A stretch of 64,000 nucleotides of DNA from Bacillus sp. SB49 (GTDB taxonomy: Bacteria > Bacillota > Bacilli > Bacillales > Halobacillaceae). The notes beneath the pieces are model-generated. The model ran no database searches. It was not told the DNA's origin and worked only from the letters and a program-made list of their open reading frames with translations. The stretch spans positions 3,571,501 through 3,635,500 of the forward strand of contig NZ_CP048117.1 in NCBI RefSeq assembly GCF_000469135.2, given 5' to 3'. The first letter of the stretch is position 1, and each line of letters begins with the position of its first letter. Shown piece by piece: positions 2,574 to 13,121 of this stretch. Made by a program: the position numbers and the translations under genes.

Positions 2574-3998
2574 TTATGGTAAATATTTACGTGGGTTTAC
2601 AGAGTTTGAACGAGCTCCATTGTACGATCCTTCGTGAATCTCGAAATGGAGGTGCTGCCCTGTAGAATCACCTGTGCTGCCCATATTTCCAAGGAACTGA
2701 CCTTGGGATACGGTTTGACCAGCGGAAACAGCTGGAGTACTTCTCATGTGGCCATACACCGTTGTGTATGTCTGACCATTAATATGGTGGGTAATTTTCA
2801 CGTTGTTACCCAGTCCTGAAGAATATCCAGCGGAATAGACAGTACCGGAAGCTGCTGCATGAATCGGAATCGTTCCAGGTCCGGCGATATCAATACCGGA
2901 GTGCAGACGGCTTGTGTTGTGGATCGGGTGGAATCGCATACCATATTCAGACGTAATTGTAGCATGTGCCGGCCAGATGAACATGGATCCACTGGACGTC
3001 GTGTTGCTGGAAGCACTTGATTCTGATTTGCTGCTGGAGCTGCTTGAGCTGCTTGAACTGTTTGAAGACTCAGAAGAGCTGCTGGAGCTTGACGCAGCTG
3101 CTGCGGTAGCTTTAGCCTCTGATTCTTTTGCTGCTGCCTTCTCGGCTGCTGCTTTTTCAGATGCAGCTTTCTCGCGTGCTGCTTTCTCCGCAGCGGCTTT
3201 CTCTGCAGCAGCTTTCTTTCTGGCTTCTTCTTCCTTACGCTGACGCTCAATTTCCTGCTTGATCGCATTTTCCTGAGCTGCAAGCTCTGCCTGCTCGTCT
3301 TCAATTGCTGTAATCTCTGAAAGTGCTTCTCTCTCTTCTGCAGATAAGCCTTCCATTACAGAATTTTTCTCTTCTTTCTTATCATCAAGGCCGGATTTCA
3401 GTGACTCCAGCTCTTTAAGGTTGGATTCAAGGGAAGCAAGTTCGTCTTCTACTTCCGCTTTCTTGGATTCGACCGCCTCTTTATCAGCACGGTGCTGATC
3501 CAGCAATTCTTTATCTTTTTCAGCAATCGTATTCAGGCTCATAGCACGTTCCACGAAGTTACCGAAGCTTTCCGCCCCCATAAGGACGTCCAGGTAATCA
3601 ACGGCTCCTCCACTTTGCTGCATGGACTTCACACGATCTTTAAGAAGTTCATCACGTTCTGCGATACGCTTCTCAAGTTCTGCGATTTCTTCTTTCAATT
3701 GCTCAATGTTCTGCTTCGTATCGGCAATTTCATTTTCCTTCGCGTCGATCTTGTCCATCGCTTCCATGATTTGTTTATCCAGGCGGGCGATTTCTGAACT
3801 GATCTCGTCCTGACGTTCTTTCAGTTCATCCACCTGCTGCTTGGTTTGTTGCTTTTCCTGTTCTTTCTGTGACTGCTGCTGCTGGTTCTGTTCCAACTTC
3901 TCCTGATTTGTTTCGGCTGATACGGTGTTGAAGCTTGTTGGCAGTCCAGCAAGAATAAGACCGGTCGACAAAGCGGCAATTAATACTTTAGACTTCAC
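2574..3998 (-). CDS. Secreted coiled-coil M23 peptidoglycan endopeptidase
   Basis: 474 residues. A signal peptide (about 1-28, ending VSA) leads to a long coiled coil rich in Glu, Gln and Lys (30-260), a KAAAEKAA-type repeat, a polyserine linker (about 295-335), and a C-terminal LytM/M23 domain. The zinc ligands H366 and D370 (HSGID) and the HLH pair H449/H451 are all present, so it should be an active metallo-endopeptidase rather than an EnvC-like degenerate activator. The coiled-coil plus hydrolase layout matches PcsB/CwlO-type partners of FtsEX, and ftsX lies 58 bp upstream on the same strand. The start is GTG at 3998 behind GGGGGAGG. Cell-wall cleavage in growth or division is likely. Confidence 0.85.
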   Translation of the reverse strand: MKSKVLIAALSTGLILAGLPTSFNTVSAETNQEKLEQNQQQQSQKEQEKQQTKQQVDELKERQDEISSEIARLDKQIMEAMDKIDAKENEIADTKQNIEQLKEEIAELEKRIAERDELLKDRVKSMQQSGGAVDYLDVLMGAESFGNFVERAMSLNTIAEKDKELLDQHRADKEAVESKKAEVEDELASLESNLKELESLKSGLDDKKEEKNSVMEGLSAEEREALSEITAIEDEQAELAAQENAIKQEIERQRKEEEARKKAAAEKAAAEKAAREKAASEKAAAEKAAAKESEAKATAAAASSSSSSSESSNSSSSSSSSSSKSESSASSNTTSSGSMFIWPAHATITSEYGMRFHPIHNTSRLHSGIDIAGPGTIPIHAAASGTVYSAGYSSGLGNNVKITHHINGQTYTTVYGHMRSTPAVSAGQTVSQGQFLGNMGSTGDSTGQHLHFEIHEGSYNGARSNSVNPRKYLP

Positions 3999-4056
3999 TC
4001 TCTTGTTTCCTCCCCCGAATCCTTACCTGTGTAATAATGGTAGTTTCCTTGTTTTT

Positions 4057-4950
4057 TTATACTTTCAAATACTTGCGGATCGATGTGAAGCTTCCCCATA
4101 GTCCGATGATGACTCCCATGAGCAGCATCAGTGCTGATACTTGAAGGACGAATGGGTAAACCGGAAGTAGATCTATGAACAACGTCGGGTATCGCGTGCT
4201 GATTTCTGAGAAAAGGAAATCGTATCCGAATATGACAAGGAGGATTGGGATGACCGATCCTAATATACCGATCATAATTCCTTCTACGAGGAACGGCCAG
4301 CGGATGAACCAATTGGTTGCACCGACCATTTTCATGATTTCGATTTCTTTTCTTCTTGCGACGATTGTAATCCGAATCGTGTTAGCAATCAGGAACATGG
4401 CTGTGAACAACAGACCTGCTATGATGGCCAGTCCCACATTGCGGGCGATATCCATTACTTTGAACAGACGTTGAACCGTCTCTTCTGCATACTCTACTTT
4501 ATCGATATTCTTGAATGTTTCAATTTCTTTTGCGACGGCAATAGTATCTTCAGGGTTCTCGGCATTGACGATGAATACATCGTTCAATGGGTTCTCATCC
4601 TTCAAGGATTCAAACACTTGCCCTTCATCTCCGAGGCTTTCGATGAGTTCATCGAGCCCTTCCTCTTTGGATTGGAATTTAACCGAAGATACTTCTGATA
4701 TTCCTTCAATTTCTTCCTGCAGTGCATCTCGTGCATCTTCATCCGCAGTCACTTCGATGAATGCGCGTACTTCCACATCCTCTTCGATCTGCTTACCGAT
4801 GTCATTCAAGTTAAGCAGTAATGTAGCAAAAACTCCGACTAGAAGTAATGTTACAGTGACAGCTGAAACGGATGCCACCGACATCCAGCGGTTTCTCGCA
4901 AGGTTCTTGAAGCCTTCTTTCATGTGGCGTCCGAACGTTCTAAATTTCAT
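4057..4950 (-). CDS. ftsX: Cell division protein FtsX
   Basis: 297 residues with the FtsX layout: cytoplasmic N terminus, TM1 (about 25-45, SVSAVTVTLLLVG), a large extracytoplasmic loop (50-165), then three more TM segments and a cytoplasmic tail. In Bacillus FtsX forms an ABC-like complex with FtsE and activates a coiled-coil hydrolase outside the cell. I start it at the ATG at 4950, because MKFRTFGRHMKEG aligns with the start of known FtsX, while an in-frame codon further upstream adds 11 unrelated residues. The M23 gene follows. There is no ftsE directly upstream, which is unusual for Bacillaceae. Confidence 0.93.
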   Translation of the reverse strand: MKFRTFGRHMKEGFKNLARNRWMSVASVSAVTVTLLLVGVFATLLLNLNDIGKQIEEDVEVRAFIEVTADEDARDALQEEIEGISEVSSVKFQSKEEGLDELIESLGDEGQVFESLKDENPLNDVFIVNAENPEDTIAVAKEIETFKNIDKVEYAEETVQRLFKVMDIARNVGLAIIAGLLFTAMFLIANTIRITIVARRKEIEIMKMVGATNWFIRWPFLVEGIMIGILGSVIPILLVIFGYDFLFSEISTRYPTLFIDLLPVYPFVLQVSALMLLMGVIIGLWGSFTSIRKYLKV

Positions 4951-5293
4951 TTCGTCTGCCACCCCAAACGCTTCGTTCCTCACATACGCTGAATTCTTGA
5001 ACGGTAGTCATGCCACAAGTTGTCGTCTCTTTGCGGTGATGTCTATCAAACAATTTATATCACTTCCTACTAAACACTCATTTTGTAAATCTATGTTGTC
5101 GATTCTATGTAATCTGTGTCGTTGCGTCGTTTACCTTCCCAATTATAACAAAGTTATTCGCTAAATACAGACAAATTATTATTACATTTGTGTTTCATAA
5201 CGTTACATAAAAGTGACATGACTGAATATTCTTTCGACATATTTCATGGTTTTCTCTCCCTTTTCCGTAGTCTTAAATACCTATTAAAACCGC
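4951..5293 (-). other. Non-coding stretch upstream of ftsX
   Basis: About 340 AT-rich bases with no coding sequence I can support on either strand. On the minus strand a perfect TATAAT (5147-5142) could be the -10 element of an ftsX-M23 promoter, which would give a leader of about 185 bases; no good -35 is seen. I looked for FtsE C-terminal codons in all frames just before ftsX and saw none. Confidence 0.45.
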
Positions 5294-5323
5294 AAAAAAA
5301 GACAGCCGTTACAGCTGTCTTTT
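5293..5323. terminator. Terminator after the 95-residue gene
   Basis: AAAAGACAGC pairs with GCTGTCTTTT around a seven-base loop (5297-5306 with 5314-5323), with A/T runs on both sides, so it could work in both directions. The stop codon of the minus-strand gene lies inside its arm. Confidence 0.85.
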
Positions 5324-5609
5324 ACCTGCTCTTTTCGATTGTCCTCTGCTGTTTTAATAACAGTAATTCCCGTTTTAACCGTTCATTTTCCTGCCGCATG
5401 GTTTCACGGGAATTTCCGTCAGGAATCAGGCAGACTTCATACCAAGCTTTACTGCGTCCGGCCACCGCTTCACTCGTTCGTTTCACCGTGGCTTTCGGAT
5501 AGCAGGATCTCAGCGCAGCAAGTTCCTGATCCGACAGCCTGAGCTCCCTGTAATAGATCCCTTCTCTAAAGGAATCATGGAGAAAACGATCAAAGGTGCT
5601 TTCCGGCAT
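5322..5609 (-). CDS. Hypothetical protein, 95 residues
   Basis: A small soluble charged protein with a C-terminal heptad-like stretch (MRQENERLKRELLLLKQQ) that suggests a short coiled coil. The middle contains a possible nucleic-acid or ligand-binding beta segment (KAWYEVCLIPDG). I do not recognise the family. It lies 57 bp after the racemase-like gene, same strand, ahead of a clear terminator, so it could be the last gene of the cross-bridge operon, though a palindrome lies between them. Confidence 0.5.
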   Translation of the reverse strand: MPESTFDRFLHDSFREGIYYRELRLSDQELAALRSCYPKATVKRTSEAVAGRSKAWYEVCLIPDGNSRETMRQENERLKRELLLLKQQRTIEKSR

Positions 5610-5666: not shown

Positions 5667-6377
5667 TTATGACTTTTGGTACACCGATTCTTTTACGACC
5701 ACGTTGGCCACGACTTCCATCGGATCGATCAGCGGTACAGAGAGATGATACGGCTTCAATACAAGACCGATTTCCGTGCATCCGGAAATGATCAGTTCTG
5801 CTCCGTTATTCAAAAGTTCCATGGATGCTTCCTTCAACTTATCCAATGGATCATGATCAGTATTTCCGCTTTTAATTCCATTCTCTCCATAAATGGCGTC
5901 CATGACTTTATTTTTCTGTGTCAATGGCGTAGGCGTAACGACCTCCAAGTGGTCGAAATACTTCTGGAACAATCCGCTCTCCAACGTCCCCGTCGTCGCC
6001 AATACGCCGATCTTCGTAACTTTCGGGTAATGGTCCTGAATGAATTTCTTCAATTCAAGAAAAGCATTCAGTAACGGGAAGGAAACGGATTTCTGAACTT
6101 CTTCTATGAAATAGTGGGCCGTCATACAAGGAATGACGGCGACTTCCACTCCTAATTTTTCCAAATTCTTCGCAGCATGGGTCATTTCAGGTACAGGACT
6201 TGCTCCTCTGCCTGATATCGCTTCTGTCCGATCAGGAATCTTCGCATTACTGTCTATGATGACGCGATAATGTTCCTGGTCTTTACTAGCGTCCGTTGCA
6301 CGGATGATTTTCAAATAACATTCGGCTGTCGCTTCCGGGCCCATGCCCCCGAGAATACCGATCAGTTTATCATTCAT
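5667..6377 (-). CDS. Aspartate/glutamate racemase family protein
   Basis: 236 residues, full length for the family. The glycine-rich start (GILGGMGPEAT) and the two catalytic cysteines are present: C84 in IPCMTAH and C200 in SGCTEIGL. These enzymes invert the alpha carbon of Asp or Glu by two-cysteine acid/base catalysis without a cofactor. The usual PCNTAH motif has Met for Asn, which may change substrate binding. It is the third gene after an ATP-grasp ligase and a Mur-family ligase (39 bp gap), which points to D-aspartate supply for a peptidoglycan cross-bridge; that is inference. Other racemases of this fold act on other amino acids. Confidence 0.82.
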   Translation of the reverse strand: MNDKLIGILGGMGPEATAECYLKIIRATDASKDQEHYRVIIDSNAKIPDRTEAISGRGASPVPEMTHAAKNLEKLGVEVAVIPCMTAHYFIEEVQKSVSFPLLNAFLELKKFIQDHYPKVTKIGVLATTGTLESGLFQKYFDHLEVVTPTPLTQKNKVMDAIYGENGIKSGNTDHDPLDKLKEASMELLNNGAELIISGCTEIGLVLKPYHLSVPLIDPMEVVANVVVKESVYQKS

Positions 6378-6416
6378 ATGATGCCTCCTAACAAAAGACC
6401 GGAACCAAGCAGTTCT

Positions 6417-7964
6417 TCATGAAATACCTGCCACTCGATTTTTCAGCGGCTTGAACAATATGTCCTCGTCCATTTCTGGTCTCGTTTTGTTTAACTGTTC
6501 CAGGGCGATCTTCGCTCCCGGATCCATTCCTTGACAACCGGCCAACAGAACAACATCGTTTTCCTTCACTTCAGACAAGGCATGTTGGACAGCATCATCC
6601 AACTCTTTGTATAAGTGGACACGGATACCCGCTTTGTCCATCATCTCCTGAAATACGCGCACCTCTTCTTCTGTCACAACGTCTTTCTCTGTGACGTGGG
6701 AATGACTGACGGTCGCAATCAGTTCCGTCAGACCGAGCTTAGGCGCCCATTCCATAATAGCCTGGGCATTCTCACGGTTTACAGTTACGCCGCGGCTTCC
6801 GCGGATGGCGTAGACCAATTTCAAATCGGCATAATCCATTTGTTCCAGCGTACTGAGGGTCACATTAATATTTCCGTAGTTCGCAAAGTGGTCGTCCAAG
6901 ATCTTGAAATCGTCTTCGAACACCATTTCGAAGCGGCGCTCGACGCCTCCAAACCCTTTCAAGCCTTTCTGGATCGTCTCAATCGGAATTTCGTTCAACA
7001 ATGCTGCTGCGATCGCAACCATGGAATTATAAACGGAATGATACCCCGGTGTCGACAGCTCGATGTCAAAGGACTCTCCGCCATACTTGCTTCCGCCGAC
7101 TGTAAATGGCTTGCGGATCTCTACCGTGAACTTCGCACGGCCTGTGGAAAGGTCAAGATTTTTACAAATCAGATCTCCGTCTCCTGTCTCCACACTGAAG
7201 GTAAGGACGTTTGCTTCCGTCTCTTCTATAAGGGAGGCGGAATAAGCATCGTCCAGGTTAAGGATTGCCCATTTGCCTGCGCCTGCATTGCGGATAAGAC
7301 TTGCTTTGCTGTTGAAATACTCTTCAAAAGAACCGTGGAGGTCAATATGTTCGCGGCTGATGTTATTCAGCGAGACGATGTCAAAATCAACGCTTCCGAC
7401 CCTGCTTAAATCAAGTGCAGAGGAGGAGACTTCCATCGTTACATGGGATACATCCTGGTCTCTCATCTGAGCGAAGTAATGGTGGAGATCCAACGATTCC
7501 GGCGTCGTCAGTTTCGTCGGTTCCGAATAATCACCGAATTTGACAACCACCGTCCCGATCAATCCTGTTTTCCAACCATGCTCTTCTAAAATGGCATCGG
7601 TCATAAACGATGTCGACGTCTTTCCGTTGGTTGCCGTTATTCCGATTGTTTTCATCGCACGGGATGGATGACCATAGAAAGCGTCACTCAAGGCTGCCAG
7701 TGCTTTGCGGCTGTCCGTTACCTGGTATTGAGGGAGGTCGTCCCATCCTTCCTGGTAATCTTCTACAACGATGGCCGCAGCACCGTTCGCCAGCGCATCA
7801 GCAATGTAGACGTGCCCATCTGTTTTAAATCCCTTGATACATACAAATACATCGCCCGGTGTTACATTCCGTGAGTTGTAGGCGAGTCCCTGCACGTCCA
7901 TATCCCGATCATTCCATGCTGCCACTATGTGAATGGATGATAGTAATTCTTTTAGTTTAGCCAT
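6417..7964 (-). CDS. Atypical MurE-like Mur ligase family protein
   Basis: 515 residues with the three Mur-ligase domains: an N-terminal UDP-MurNAc-binding-type domain, a central ATPase (P-loop ITATNGKTST, 109-118; TTPES; NISREHIDLHG, 201-211; K220 as the likely carbamylated lysine), and a C-terminal ligase domain. Up to about residue 345 (ERRFE) it follows MurE closely. After that the usual DYAHTPD becomes DDHFANYGN, the GAGGDRD motif becomes AIRGSRG, and the DNPR or DNPA substrate motif is absent. The enzyme is therefore unlikely to add diaminopimelate and may use another amino acid. Between an ATP-grasp ligase and a racemase, it fits cell-wall precursor modification. Confidence 0.8.
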   Translation of the reverse strand: MAKLKELLSSIHIVAAWNDRDMDVQGLAYNSRNVTPGDVFVCIKGFKTDGHVYIADALANGAAAIVVEDYQEGWDDLPQYQVTDSRKALAALSDAFYGHPSRAMKTIGITATNGKTSTSFMTDAILEEHGWKTGLIGTVVVKFGDYSEPTKLTTPESLDLHHYFAQMRDQDVSHVTMEVSSSALDLSRVGSVDFDIVSLNNISREHIDLHGSFEEYFNSKASLIRNAGAGKWAILNLDDAYSASLIEETEANVLTFSVETGDGDLICKNLDLSTGRAKFTVEIRKPFTVGGSKYGGESFDIELSTPGYHSVYNSMVAIAAALLNEIPIETIQKGLKGFGGVERRFEMVFEDDFKILDDHFANYGNINVTLSTLEQMDYADLKLVYAIRGSRGVTVNRENAQAIMEWAPKLGLTELIATVSHSHVTEKDVVTEEEVRVFQEMMDKAGIRVHLYKELDDAVQHALSEVKENDVVLLAGCQGMDPGAKIALEQLNKTRPEMDEDILFKPLKNRVAGIS

Positions 7965-8070
7965 TCTTATCTACCTTCCTGCCAATGTTTTATCCTTATG
8001 ATCCGTACGTGTCATGATTCTTCCTTCTTATTATAAACGGCTGTTCCTCTTTATTCTGACGGAAAAACCA

Positions 8071-9258
8071 TTATTTTCGTTTCGTCACTTTTCCTGCGAC
8101 AAGCCCTGCAAGCTTCTTCCCGAAAGCGAACGCCGGTTTCGGATCTTTCGGGTCCCAAATCGCGTGTGCTTTTGGCCGGAAATACGATTTGAATACTTTT
8201 TTCGGTGAGAGCTGACCCGTCTTGATGTATTCTCTCACTGCAAGCAGATCTTCATAGGCATACCAGAATACGATGTTCTGATCCTCCTCTACCGCTTTCG
8301 GCGGCAGCGGATCACCTGTCAATTCCTTATAAGTGATGTAAGGAATATTGATGCCCGTTTTCTGCAGCAGATGATTCAAGTTCGTAATCCGAACGTTAAT
8401 CTCAATCAGGTAATAGCGTCCTGTTTCCGCATCCTTCTTAAATTCTATTTCCGCAAAGCCCTTGTACTGAATTCCTTCCAGGAACCTGCTTCCCAGCTCG
8501 TACAGCTCCGGGACATACTTCTGCTGCGTATAGACGGAAGCACCGTAGTTAACAGGGAACTGACGCAGTTTCTGACAAGTCACCCAATGTGTAACCTTCG
8601 AATCCTGGTCCAGATAGGCGTCAAAGGTGTACATATGATCATCAAATCCAGGAATAATCCGTTGAACAATGACCTCAATGTCCGCAGCTTTGGATTCTTC
8701 CACTTTCTCCACCAATTCTTCTCTCGTGTGAACGGTGAACAGCTTTCTTCTGAACTTAGCCACAAACGCAGGGGAATCGACAGGTTTGACGAGACAAGGG
8801 TATCCAATTTCCGATTCCACCTTATCTACGTATTCCGCTCCGTCGACATGGACCGTCTCAGGTACCGCCACTCCGTGTTCGGAGGCGAGTTTATGCAACG
8901 TTCCTTTATCCATTATTTTAGTATATAATCCCTGCTCTTTTTGGGGAATAAGGAAATGTTCCCTTAATTCCGGAAGATAAGCATCGACGAATTCGACATA
9001 AGGATCTGCTGTCGGTATCAGCACCGGCGCTTCCTGTTGTTTTTTTGCGTAATCAATCAAAAAAGCAACCAGACCCTCTGGATCCTCTTTATAATGTGGA
9101 CCGATCAACGCTTCGGAACAATACTTGGACTCAAGTCCATAGGCACCTTCCCACGCATAGTCGACGGCAGCAACGTGGACACCGTGAACGCCGAGGCACC
9201 GGATCGTGCTGAGACCGATATAATAATTCGCTCCTAATACAACTGCTTTGTTAGCCAT
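8071..9258 (-). CDS. ATP-grasp ligase, D-aspartate ligase-like
   Basis: 395 residues. A Rossmann-like N domain (VVLGANYYIGLSTIRCLG, 6-23) leads to an ATP-grasp fold with YPCLVKPVDS for nucleotide binding and the metal-binding segment FAEIEFKK...YLIEINVRITN. The order of elements resembles carbamoyl-phosphate-synthase-type ATP-grasp enzymes, including the D-aspartate ligase Aslfm that attaches D-Asp to the side chain of Lys in Enterococcus. First gene of the operon: Mur ligase and racemase follow. I infer a role in adding D-Asp to a peptidoglycan precursor. A role in making some other peptide or amide bond cannot be excluded from sequence. Confidence 0.75.
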   Translation of the reverse strand: MANKAVVLGANYYIGLSTIRCLGVHGVHVAAVDYAWEGAYGLESKYCSEALIGPHYKEDPEGLVAFLIDYAKKQQEAPVLIPTADPYVEFVDAYLPELREHFLIPQKEQGLYTKIMDKGTLHKLASEHGVAVPETVHVDGAEYVDKVESEIGYPCLVKPVDSPAFVAKFRRKLFTVHTREELVEKVEESKAADIEVIVQRIIPGFDDHMYTFDAYLDQDSKVTHWVTCQKLRQFPVNYGASVYTQQKYVPELYELGSRFLEGIQYKGFAEIEFKKDAETGRYYLIEINVRITNLNHLLQKTGINIPYITYKELTGDPLPPKAVEEDQNIVFWYAYEDLLAVREYIKTGQLSPKKVFKSYFRPKAHAIWDPKDPKPAFAFGKKLAGLVAGKVTKRK

Positions 9259-11084: not shown

Positions 11085-13121
11085 TTACACTATAACTCGA
11101 TCCCAGTGCCGATGCGCAGCAATGGCTTTCGTGAAATCTTCGGAGAACTGTTTATAATCCGTTGCGGTAACGACACCACTGTTACCGCTCCATCCTCCCT
11201 GTTCTACTATATCCGCTCCGGCTCCGGTTGCACCGATCGGCTTGTAATGGTTGAAGGATTCCTCGAGGTAATAAGCAACACGTTTGCGGAACGACTCATC
11301 CATGTCTTTTCCTCCGACAACGTAAACCGCATCATAGAGTACCGGGTCTGTCGTCCGGAACGTATGATCAACGGTAACTTCGTTGCCCTCACTGGATTTC
11401 AGCTTCCCTTGTTTACTGCTGATGATTTCGGCAGCAACCCCGTTGGAAGAAAGGTGGTCAAGCACGGTCTGCACACCGCTTCCATCAAAACCGGCCGCCA
11501 ATAGGACGCCGACCTTCCTGGTTGCCGCCTTGGAGGCAGAATTAGCCTGACTTAAGGCAGGAGAGGACTTCGTCACTTCCGAACCTCCCTCTGTCGGAAC
11601 TGCCACACCAATGTTATCGGCAATGCCTTCAGCTAGATCCATACTGACGTTAGCAAACATGTCGACGACCTGTTTACGCACAGATTCGCTGCCGACTTTA
11701 CCCAGTTCAAAGCTGAATGCTTGGATCAAGTGTTTCTTCTCATGATCGCTCATGCTGTTCCAGAACAACGTCGCTTGTGAGAAGTGATCTTTAAAGCTTT
11801 CACTCCGCGCCCGAACTTTACGGCCTTCTACTTTCTCCTGATAATGCTTGTATCCGCCCTCTTCCTCTGACGCCGGTGTTGGCGTGTTCTTGGCCAAAGA
11901 GTTCTTATGATAGCTGACCTGACCGGTATTGATGGTCTGGCGGCCGTAACCGTCACGCTGGTTATTAAAGAACGGGCAGACGGGACGGTTGATCGGAAGC
12001 TCATGGAAGTTCGGTCCTCCAAGGCGGATCAGCTGGGTATCCGTATAAGAGAACAAACGCCCTTGCAGCAACGGGTCGTTCGTAAAGTCGATTCCCGGTA
12101 CGACATGCCCAGGGTGGAATGCCACCTGCTCATTTTCCGCAAAGACATTGTCTACATTACGGTTCAGGGTCATCTTACCGACAATTTGTACGGGCACGTC
12201 TTCTTCCGGCCAAAGCTTCGTCGGATCGAGAATGTCGAAATCAAACCGGAACTCATCCTCTTCCGGAATGATCTGTAAGCCCAGTTCGTATTCCGGAAAA
12301 TCGCCGTTTTCAATGGCATTGTATAAATCTCCTCTATGGAAATCCGGGTCTTTCCCCATCACCTTCTGTGCTTCATCCCACACAAGAGAGTGCGTCCCAA
12401 GCACAGGCTTCCAGTGGAACTTGACGAAGTGCGATTTTCCTTCTTCGTTTACAAGGCGGAAGGTATGTACTCCAAACCCTTCCATCATCCGGAAGCTGCG
12501 CGGAATAGCGCGGTCGGACATCGTCCACATAGCCATATGGGCGGATTCCTGGTTGTTCGCAATGAAGTCCCAGAATGTATCGTGGGCGGAAGCCGCCTGC
12601 GGCATGCCGTTATGGGGTTCCGGTTTCACCGCGTGGATCAAATCCGGAAACTTGATGGCATCCTGTATGAAGAATACCGGTATGTTATTTCCAACAAGGT
12701 CGTAGTTACCTTCTTCTGTGTAAAATTTCGTAGCAAAACCACGGGCGTCACGAGCAAGATCGGCAGAACCTTTAGAACCAGCCACCGTGGAGAAGCGCAC
12801 GAAGACAGGTGTTTTCTTAGCCGGATCATTGAGGAAATCGGCCCTCGTATAGTCCTTCAATGATTTATAAAGTTCAAATTCCCCGTGGGCGGAAAAACCG
12901 CGCGCATGTACGATACGCTCAGGGATACGCTCGTGGTCAAAATGCGTCATTTTTTCACGAAAATGAAAATCTTCCATTAACGTAGGACCACGCTCACCTG
13001 CTTTTAAAGAAAATTCATCCTCAGACACCTTCAACCCCTGGTTCGTCGTCAGATGCTTCCCTGAATCATCAACCCGGAACTGCTCCAACTGTTCATCCTT
13101 CTTCGATCTTTTGTCGCTCAT
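11085..13121 (-). CDS. katE: Large-subunit catalase (HPII/KatE type)
   Basis: 678 residues, the size of clade 2 catalases. The heme-side His is in IVHARGFSAHG and the proximal Tyr in LFSYTDTQLIRLGG. A C-terminal extension of about 150 residues has a DJ-1/glutamine-amidotransferase-like flavodoxin fold (KVGVLLAAGFDGSGV, then VDHTFRTTDPVLYDAVYVVGG), typical of this clade. It converts hydrogen peroxide to water and oxygen. The RBS GAGGAGG precedes the start. A SigB-type promoter about 60 bases upstream agrees with SigB control of katE in B. subtilis. Confidence 0.96.
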   Translation of the reverse strand: MSDKRSKKDEQLEQFRVDDSGKHLTTNQGLKVSEDEFSLKAGERGPTLMEDFHFREKMTHFDHERIPERIVHARGFSAHGEFELYKSLKDYTRADFLNDPAKKTPVFVRFSTVAGSKGSADLARDARGFATKFYTEEGNYDLVGNNIPVFFIQDAIKFPDLIHAVKPEPHNGMPQAASAHDTFWDFIANNQESAHMAMWTMSDRAIPRSFRMMEGFGVHTFRLVNEEGKSHFVKFHWKPVLGTHSLVWDEAQKVMGKDPDFHRGDLYNAIENGDFPEYELGLQIIPEEDEFRFDFDILDPTKLWPEEDVPVQIVGKMTLNRNVDNVFAENEQVAFHPGHVVPGIDFTNDPLLQGRLFSYTDTQLIRLGGPNFHELPINRPVCPFFNNQRDGYGRQTINTGQVSYHKNSLAKNTPTPASEEEGGYKHYQEKVEGRKVRARSESFKDHFSQATLFWNSMSDHEKKHLIQAFSFELGKVGSESVRKQVVDMFANVSMDLAEGIADNIGVAVPTEGGSEVTKSSPALSQANSASKAATRKVGVLLAAGFDGSGVQTVLDHLSSNGVAAEIISSKQGKLKSSEGNEVTVDHTFRTTDPVLYDAVYVVGGKDMDESFRKRVAYYLEESFNHYKPIGATGAGADIVEQGGWSGNSGVVTATDYKQFSEDFTKAIAAHRHWDRVIV

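Follow-up and report, generated by a model that had tools for sequence, protein, structure and literature searches.

A 64,000-nucleotide stretch of Bacillus sp. SB49 (contig NZ_CP048117.1, positions 3,571,501 to 3,635,500; hereafter the window) carries on its minus strand a three-gene cassette encoding an ATP-grasp ligase, an altered MurE-family ligase that we call MurX, and an Asp/Glu-family racemase. The host genome, one complete contig of 3.77 Mb, belongs to Halobacillus. We propose, with a probability of roughly two in three, that the cassette sets the wall type, providing A4-beta peptidoglycan with ornithine and D-aspartate (Orn-D-Asp) over a genome still able to make stems containing meso-diaminopimelic acid (mDAP). 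Halobacillus has Orn-D-Asp peptidoglycan and Ornithinibacillus the Orn type, and the cross-bridge type is used as a taxonomic marker for both genera. Our observations cover which genes are present, how far they are conserved, what they are homologous to, which motifs are lost, which genes co-occur, and the replacement of one ligase type by another; from these we infer every substrate.

An earlier note on this DNA had described an operon of an ATP-grasp ligase, a MurE-like ligase, and a racemase, and the three open reading frames (ORFs) are indeed present on the minus strand. In order of transcription, they are the ATP-grasp gene (8071..9258, 395 aa; a probable D-aspartate ligase remotely related to Asl enzymes), murX (6417..7964, 515 aa; a MurE-family ligase without DNPR, proposed to be a UDP-MurNAc-L-Ala-D-Glu : L-Orn ligase, where UDP-MurNAc is uridine diphosphate-N-acetylmuramic acid), and the racemase gene (5667..6377, 236 aa; a proposed aspartate racemase), followed by a 95-aa ORF. 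The gaps are 106 bp between the ATP-grasp gene and murX and 39 bp between murX and the racemase gene.

The ATP-grasp ligase is related to Asl enzymes

The ligase has CPSase_L_D2 / Dala_Dala_lig_C domains, and its AlphaFold2 model shows an ATP-grasp fold with a predicted local distance difference test (pLDDT) score of 87.4. A Foldseek search with this model returned generic ATP-grasp folds (biotin carboxylases, PurK, and PylC) and no closer function. Profile comparison by hhalign established homology to Asl-type ATP-grasp ligases: a profile of 16 cassette-family sequences matched an Asl-type profile at 99.9% (E 1.3e-33, 291 columns, 25% identity), the Asl side being 13 of 20 classic-type proteins, anchored to named lactobacilli (40–52% identity) and not to published AslA/Aslfm sequences. 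Residues K118, K158, E286, N288, and R290 are invariant over the 29 sequences of the cassette and classic groups. In three Halobacillus genomes, the sole match to the Asl profile was the cassette enzyme, and in two cassette-free genomes of the same family, the profile found no match.

Gene neighborhoods of the classic type were also surveyed. A racemase lies near nine of the 13 proteins in the Asl profile and an AsnB gene near four, with four of the 13 having no racemase nearby. Across 20 classic-type loci of the class (ATP-grasp 24–31% identical), a racemase was flagged in 10, an AsnB-type gene in six, and a Mur ligase in none. Among named classic relatives (40–52%), that of Latilactobacillus curvatus lies beside an “amino acid racemase,” that of Lactobacillus crispatus beside asnB, and that of Limosilactobacillus fermentum alone. 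In L. fermentum DR9, the classic Asl-type ligase (locus L408:4001-5242) sits near transposases in CP033372.1, a 760-kb record filed as a plasmid; no racemase is listed next to it.

A racemase or asnB neighbor corresponds to the layout of aslA, racD, and asnH. Excerpts of PMC4155827 describe AslA as an ATP-grasp enzyme attaching D-Asp at residue 3 and report ornithine at position 3 in L. fermentum. Judged by its sequence, the cassette enzyme is a remote relative of the lactobacillus-type ligases and a probable D-aspartate ligase; its context, together with the replacement of ligase types described below, suggests that it would ligate D-Asp onto the residue-3 side chain. Paralogs of about 30% identity (L117, L120, and L121) were set aside. 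By eye, their neighbors are glycosyltransferase-like, deacetylase-like, and kinase-like; no racemase was flagged at these three loci, and a MurE-like gene appeared only in L121, more than 4 kb away on the opposite strand. The cassette ATP-grasp gene itself occurs in paired copies at L103:6998-10499 and L172:7690-10155.

MurX is an altered MurE beside a canonical copy

MurX scores 292.3 bits against the murE subfamily model TIGR01085 (cut-off, 257.3), contains the three Mur domains PF01225, PF08245, and PF02875, and has the MurE fold across its full length. Its structure fits best onto MurE bound to UDP-MurNAc-tripeptide, and the signature positions TTP, SS, R188, K220, and NGKT are retained. 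Against the best-scoring mDAP equivalog model, it reaches 312, under the cut-off of 373. MurX lacks DNPR, the motif by which an mDAP-adding MurE binds the second carboxylate of mDAP; in a profile alignment to Mycobacterium tuberculosis MurE, that site is occupied by S-x-S-H (residues 420–423; 6696..6707, minus strand), with S420 conserved in 34/34 MurX sequences, S422 in 31/34, and H423 in 33/34. Two further minus-strand motifs are invariant in all 34: DDHFAN (residues 357–362; 6879..6896), which replaces DYAHTP, and GCQGMD (residues 476–481; 6522..6539) at the GKGHE site. The invariant D481 lies near the position of an acidic MurE residue that, according to excerpts of PMC3829189, holds the side-chain amino group. 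In our tree, from which L261, a different kind of Mur-family protein, had been excluded beforehand, MurX forms a separate clade whose 14 typical members have support of 100/99.

A separate canonical murE, looked for as a check on the earlier note's proposal, was found in the dcw (division and cell wall) cluster of the host genome, with DNPR in place. The dcw MurE keeps both DNPR and GKGHE in the three Halobacillus and six Ornithinibacillus genomes read. We then listed the Mur-family proteins of 19 hand-picked ligase-bearing genomes. MurX or MurK, a MurE-family type with the motif DNPK, was present in 14, and four genomes, all of a family (f49) that we tentatively take to be Planococcaceae, had a DDPR-type MurE instead; one genome, G770, had neither. 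DDPR- and DNPR-type MurE occurred together in three of these four f49 genomes, and the fourth showed only the DDPR type among the proteins read. A further genome, G894, was excluded from the 19, as its ATP-grasp protein is a paralog of about 31% identity and its MurX-like protein only 33% identical. Both ligase-free genomes, G041 and G023, were without MurX, MurK, or a DDPR-type MurE. In G771, six Mur-family proteins were found; besides the dcw MurE and MurX, there are four whose positions and scores identify them as MurF, MurD, MurC, and FolC.

Since Halobacillus is an Orn-D-Asp genus, and since excerpts of PMC10868198 call the mDAP of H. campisalis unlike other Halobacillus, the simplest candidate for an enzyme that adds Orn is MurX, which would leave mDAP to the dcw MurE. 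The earlier note had allowed that the Mur ligase acts on an ornithine-containing or a D-Asp-bearing precursor; by elimination, we favor an L-Orn-adding MurE over a ligase for a D-Asp-bearing substrate.

Two side observations concern MurX itself. In Thalassobacillus pellis, the racemase gene is flanked by two different MurX copies, 72% and 61% identical to that of the window (L046:1921-5780). A plasmid search for MurX gave 16 records, the best of which (57%) is a 2.6-Mb Acetoanaerobium record that resembles a chromosome; the others listed reach at most 39%.

Distribution of the cassette and exchange of ligase types

The cassette ATP-grasp gene is present in 22 of 22 Halobacillus genomes and, as an ortholog, in one of 22 other genomes of the family. 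That one is T. pellis, whose ortholog is 75% identical; named Halobacillus orthologs are 81–90% identical. An order-wide sample of 249 genomes gave 33 ATP-grasp matches at E 1e-20, of which 11 (five of them Halobacillus) were at least 64% identical and the other 22 reached 26–32% at best. Of 232 coding stretches confirmed when named genomes were scanned, we took the best 80 by ATP-grasp similarity (the 80 named loci; the counts include L169 and L196, which have broken frames or run into contig ends). Named carriers span Halobacillus, Thalassobacillus, Ornithinibacillus, Oceanobacillus, Virgibacillus, Cytobacillus, Fredinandcohnia, Paenibacillus, Cohnella, Caloramator, Bacillus-like species, and others.

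Every one of the 80 named loci has a MurE-family partner (MurX in 65 and MurK in 16, one locus having both types), and 69 have a racemase. The Mur and ATP-grasp genes are co-oriented in 77 of the 78 loci in which both exceed 400 bits, which is above chance. An AsnB-type amidotransferase was found in 19 loci: 17 have it inside the cassette, and the other two have a remoter AsnB located upstream. There is a C39-like peptidase in 17 loci, including one weak case. Where it is internal (17/80; L096:9778-12764 and similar loci), the AsnB-type gene sits between the Mur ligase and the racemase and is mostly followed by the C39-like peptidase gene, whose product has a prealbumin-like domain in L096. 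These two additions may possibly serve to form D-Asn and to cleave the bridge.

The two ligase types replace one another. In the family holding Ornithinibacillus (159 genomes), the cassette ATP-grasp occurs in 22 genomes (E 1e-60), classic Asl in 15 (E <1e-100), and both in three. Within Ornithinibacillus (11 genomes, including O. bavariensis, G762, and O. contaminans, G765), nine have the cassette type, two have classic Asl, and none has both, and MurX or MurK is found in 10; outside the genus, 23 of the family's 148 genomes have either ligase. Classic Asl directly adjoins MurX in G817 and MurK in G747, and in G188 a MurK-racemase pair stands alone with Asl elsewhere in the genome. Because the ligase types replace each other in Ornithinibacillus and share loci with MurX or MurK, it appears that, within a single system, one ATP-grasp type can be exchanged for the other, and MurX for MurK.

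The racemase

The racemase matches PF01177 and the amino acid racemase model TIGR00035 (186 bits versus a cut-off of 93), and its best PDB match is aspartate racemase 1jfl. With cysteines at 84 and 200, which we presume to be the catalytic positions, it has both the family score and the cysteine pair of an aspartate racemase. It also passes the NCBIfam CuyB model NF052483 (209.9 versus a cut-off of 190), as does the racemase of an AsnB-bearing cassette (206.4), which would fit a cysteate racemase in a cluster handling a sulfonated amino acid. One of two Asl-linked racemases passes the same model, however (L286, 208.7; L303, 162.2, below the cut-off), so it is not clearly specific here; we did not accept the cysteate assignment, which we regard as highly improbable.

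Evidence against and alternative readings

A number of observations weigh against the Orn-D-Asp assignment. No racemase was seen in 11 of the 80 named loci. Excerpts of PMC4155827 describe Lactiplantibacillus plantarum as having racD and mDAP with no aslA, so that a racemase alone is no marker. Fisher values of 1e-11 (Halobacillus) and 1e-8 (Ornithinibacillus, either ligase) treat genomes as independent, and since the genomes are related, these values stand for few independent events. Around remoter ATP-grasp relatives (40–56%) in a phylum sample, a Mur ligase was absent nearby in 12 of 14 loci, some of which end at contig ends. A ligase family wider than the cassette would suit a soluble D-amino-acid peptide or cofactor of secondary metabolism, unrelated to the wall. 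Yet MurX keeps the MurE signature positions and fits best onto MurE with UDP-MurNAc-tripeptide, and the cassette ligase swaps with the lactobacillus-type Asl, all of which makes a soluble product decidedly unlikely.

Other points concern the Mur ligases. The Asp of DNPR is Ser in MurX, so that, of the two acidic contacts to the side chain in Staphylococcus aureus MurE, only one is kept. Besides MurX and the dcw MurE, the host genome has three further MurE-like paralogs (L040:3802-5355, L043:4289-5779, and L044:3720-5177), with VDQPG, VDHPG, and MDDLN, respectively, at the DNPR site; these are not common to all Halobacillus and Ornithinibacillus genomes read, and their neighbors are carotenoid-type, metal-ATPase-type, and N-acetylglucosamine (GlcNAc)-use genes. 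G770 has classic Asl with a single, DNPR-type MurE, which breaks the two-MurE rule: exceptions to it may exist, or else the acceptor is added by the dcw MurE of this genome. The latter would support a scheme in which the dcw MurE adds L-Orn and MurX acts otherwise on the wall precursor, for example in adding a further residue or in Mpl-like peptide recycling. DNPR may not decide alone, given that the use of Lys by S. aureus MurE is attributed largely to lysine levels in excerpts of PMC3829189. Against this scheme, the dcw MurE motifs of Halobacillus and Ornithinibacillus equal those of the two ligase-free relatives, and MurX, MurK, or a DDPR-type MurE accompanies the ligase in 18 of the 19 listed genomes; we consider it unlikely.

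The last set concerns wall chemistry. The earlier note had named, as evidence to the contrary, a cluster present in many species with plain mDAP walls, and part of that is seen: the cassette is present in Cohnella xylanilytica and another Cohnella, and also in Paenibacillus and Bacillus-like species. The carrier genera Paenibacillus, Oceanobacillus, Virgibacillus, and Caloramator are mDAP genera or unmeasured. Cohnella is described as an mDAP genus in excerpts of PMC10308117 and PMC11668882, and excerpts of PMC9781867 call l-Orn-d-Asp and similar types infrequent beside mDAP in Bacillus. Sporadic presence in such genera could mean that the cassette produces a wall variant that is minor or conditional (under stress, in a growth phase, or in sporulation) in cells that are mostly mDAP, having become the main route in Halobacillus, where 22 of 22 genomes have it, and in Ornithinibacillus, where 10 of 11 have MurX or MurK. 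This would be compatible with the Orn-D-Asp assignment, and we hold it to be possible, if somewhat doubtful.

In the open-licence literature, we found no paper naming genes for the Halobacillus or Ornithinibacillus cross-bridge, none joining Halobacillus, D-Asp, ornithine, and peptidoglycan, and none joining Ornithinibacillus, peptidoglycan, and ornithine. Term searches of PMC12167742, PMC4148997, and PMC11332149 gave no data on cell-wall amino acids, and excerpts of PMC4015370 offer general remarks on wall diversity only.

Proposed pathway and implications

In the Orn-D-Asp pathway that we favor, the racemase would convert L-Asp to D-Asp, and MurX, not the dcw MurE, would add L-Orn (in relatives perhaps L-Lys) to UDP-MurNAc-L-Ala-D-Glu. 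The ATP-grasp ligase would then activate D-Asp as an acyl phosphate and join it to the free side-chain amino group of the position-3 residue. The branched precursor would proceed by the ordinary MurF, MraY, MurG, and penicillin-binding protein (PBP) route, so no exporter would be needed. The dcw MurE would go on adding mDAP for a different purpose, most probably in the spore cortex, by a parallel with Bacillus sphaericus.

The earlier note's central idea, a cluster that supplies and attaches D-Asp with a re-specialized Mur ligase, is well supported at its core by comparative genomics, namely the homology to Asl, the ligase replacement, the near-confinement to Halobacillus within its family (22/22 versus 1/22), and a DAP motif lost in MurX and kept in the dcw MurE. 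It thus appears right in outline, with ornithine, D-Asp, and action on a wall precursor as putative assignments and the chemistry unproven.

Beyond that idea, a distinct MurE clade that travels with either ligase type across Bacillota suggests a portable wall-type cassette. Extending this tentatively, and at somewhat less than even odds, MurX or MurK, either ATP-grasp type, and an Asp racemase would form a portable unit that builds a second wall (Lys/Orn-D-Asp) beside mDAP in spore-forming Bacillota, so that dozens of plain-mDAP species would be dual-walled with a condition-dependent cross-bridge. If true, wall type could be predicted from the genome, and a set of genera called mDAP could be examined directly for a second chemistry of the wall that has stayed hidden; the MurE clade, its pocket for the amino acid rebuilt, would be a test case for the choice of stem position 3. 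Within its genus, H. campisalis is reported to be the mDAP exception and would be a natural control; it was not recognizable among the 22 Halobacillus genomes or the named matches.

Genomic surroundings

A terminator-like hairpin (9432-9409) lies between an upstream M20 dipeptidase gene and the ATP-grasp gene, so that the dipeptidase is probably outside the unit and was rejected as an operon member. A scan found no promoter-like site 5′ of the ATP-grasp gene, and it yielded fewer promoter-like sites than shuffled sequences did. The 95-aa ORF (5322..5609, minus strand), directly 3′ of the racemase gene, matched nothing in Pfam (E 0.001) or NCBIfam (E 1e-10). Its relatives occur in 34 of the 80 named loci; in 30 of these, they lie no more than about 115 bp from where the racemase gene ends. 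Reading the sequence 3′ of this ORF also shows a hairpin that has a T run, which the automated scan did not list.

Further downstream, an FtsX-like gene and an M23-type peptidase gene were recognized by eye (2574-4983), and FtsX relatives remain near the cassette in Halobacillus and T. pellis. Upstream lies a long catalase-like gene (11085-13121), with a similar one by eye in Lentibacillus sediminis; positions in relatives are L101:1112-3157 and L337:4628-6676. The lone MurX of an Ornithinibacillus genome is also adjoined by a similar catalase-like gene, again by eye.

Comparison with known systems

Compared with an ordinary MurE, whether mDAP- or L-Lys-adding, MurX has S-x-S-H for DNPR, DDHFAN for DYAHTP, and GCQGMD for GKGHE, and it is an extra protein beside the dcw MurE. 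Lysinibacillus/Bacillus sphaericus has a two-MurE system, with Lys in the vegetative wall and mDAP in the cortex. The likeness is that a non-DAP-type MurE accompanies a DNPR-type MurE in a genome that also encodes an Asl-type ligase. In that system and in family f49, however, the non-DAP MurE is a DDPR variant encoded away from the ligase, whereas here MurX or MurK lies inside the cassette.

The AslA/Aslfm, RacD, and AsnH system of Lactococcus and Enterococcus faecium likewise pairs an ATP-grasp ligase with an Asp/Glu-family racemase. According to excerpts of PMC4155827, racD of Lactococcus lactis is in the same operon as aslA, and AsnH amidates D-Asp after ligation; some cassette relatives also carry an AsnB-type amidotransferase, and the ligases are homologous at the profile level. 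The cassette differs in that its ATP-grasp enzyme is only about 25% identical to the classic type and in that a MurE-family ligase accompanies it in all 80 of the nearest named loci, versus none flagged in the 20 classic-type loci.

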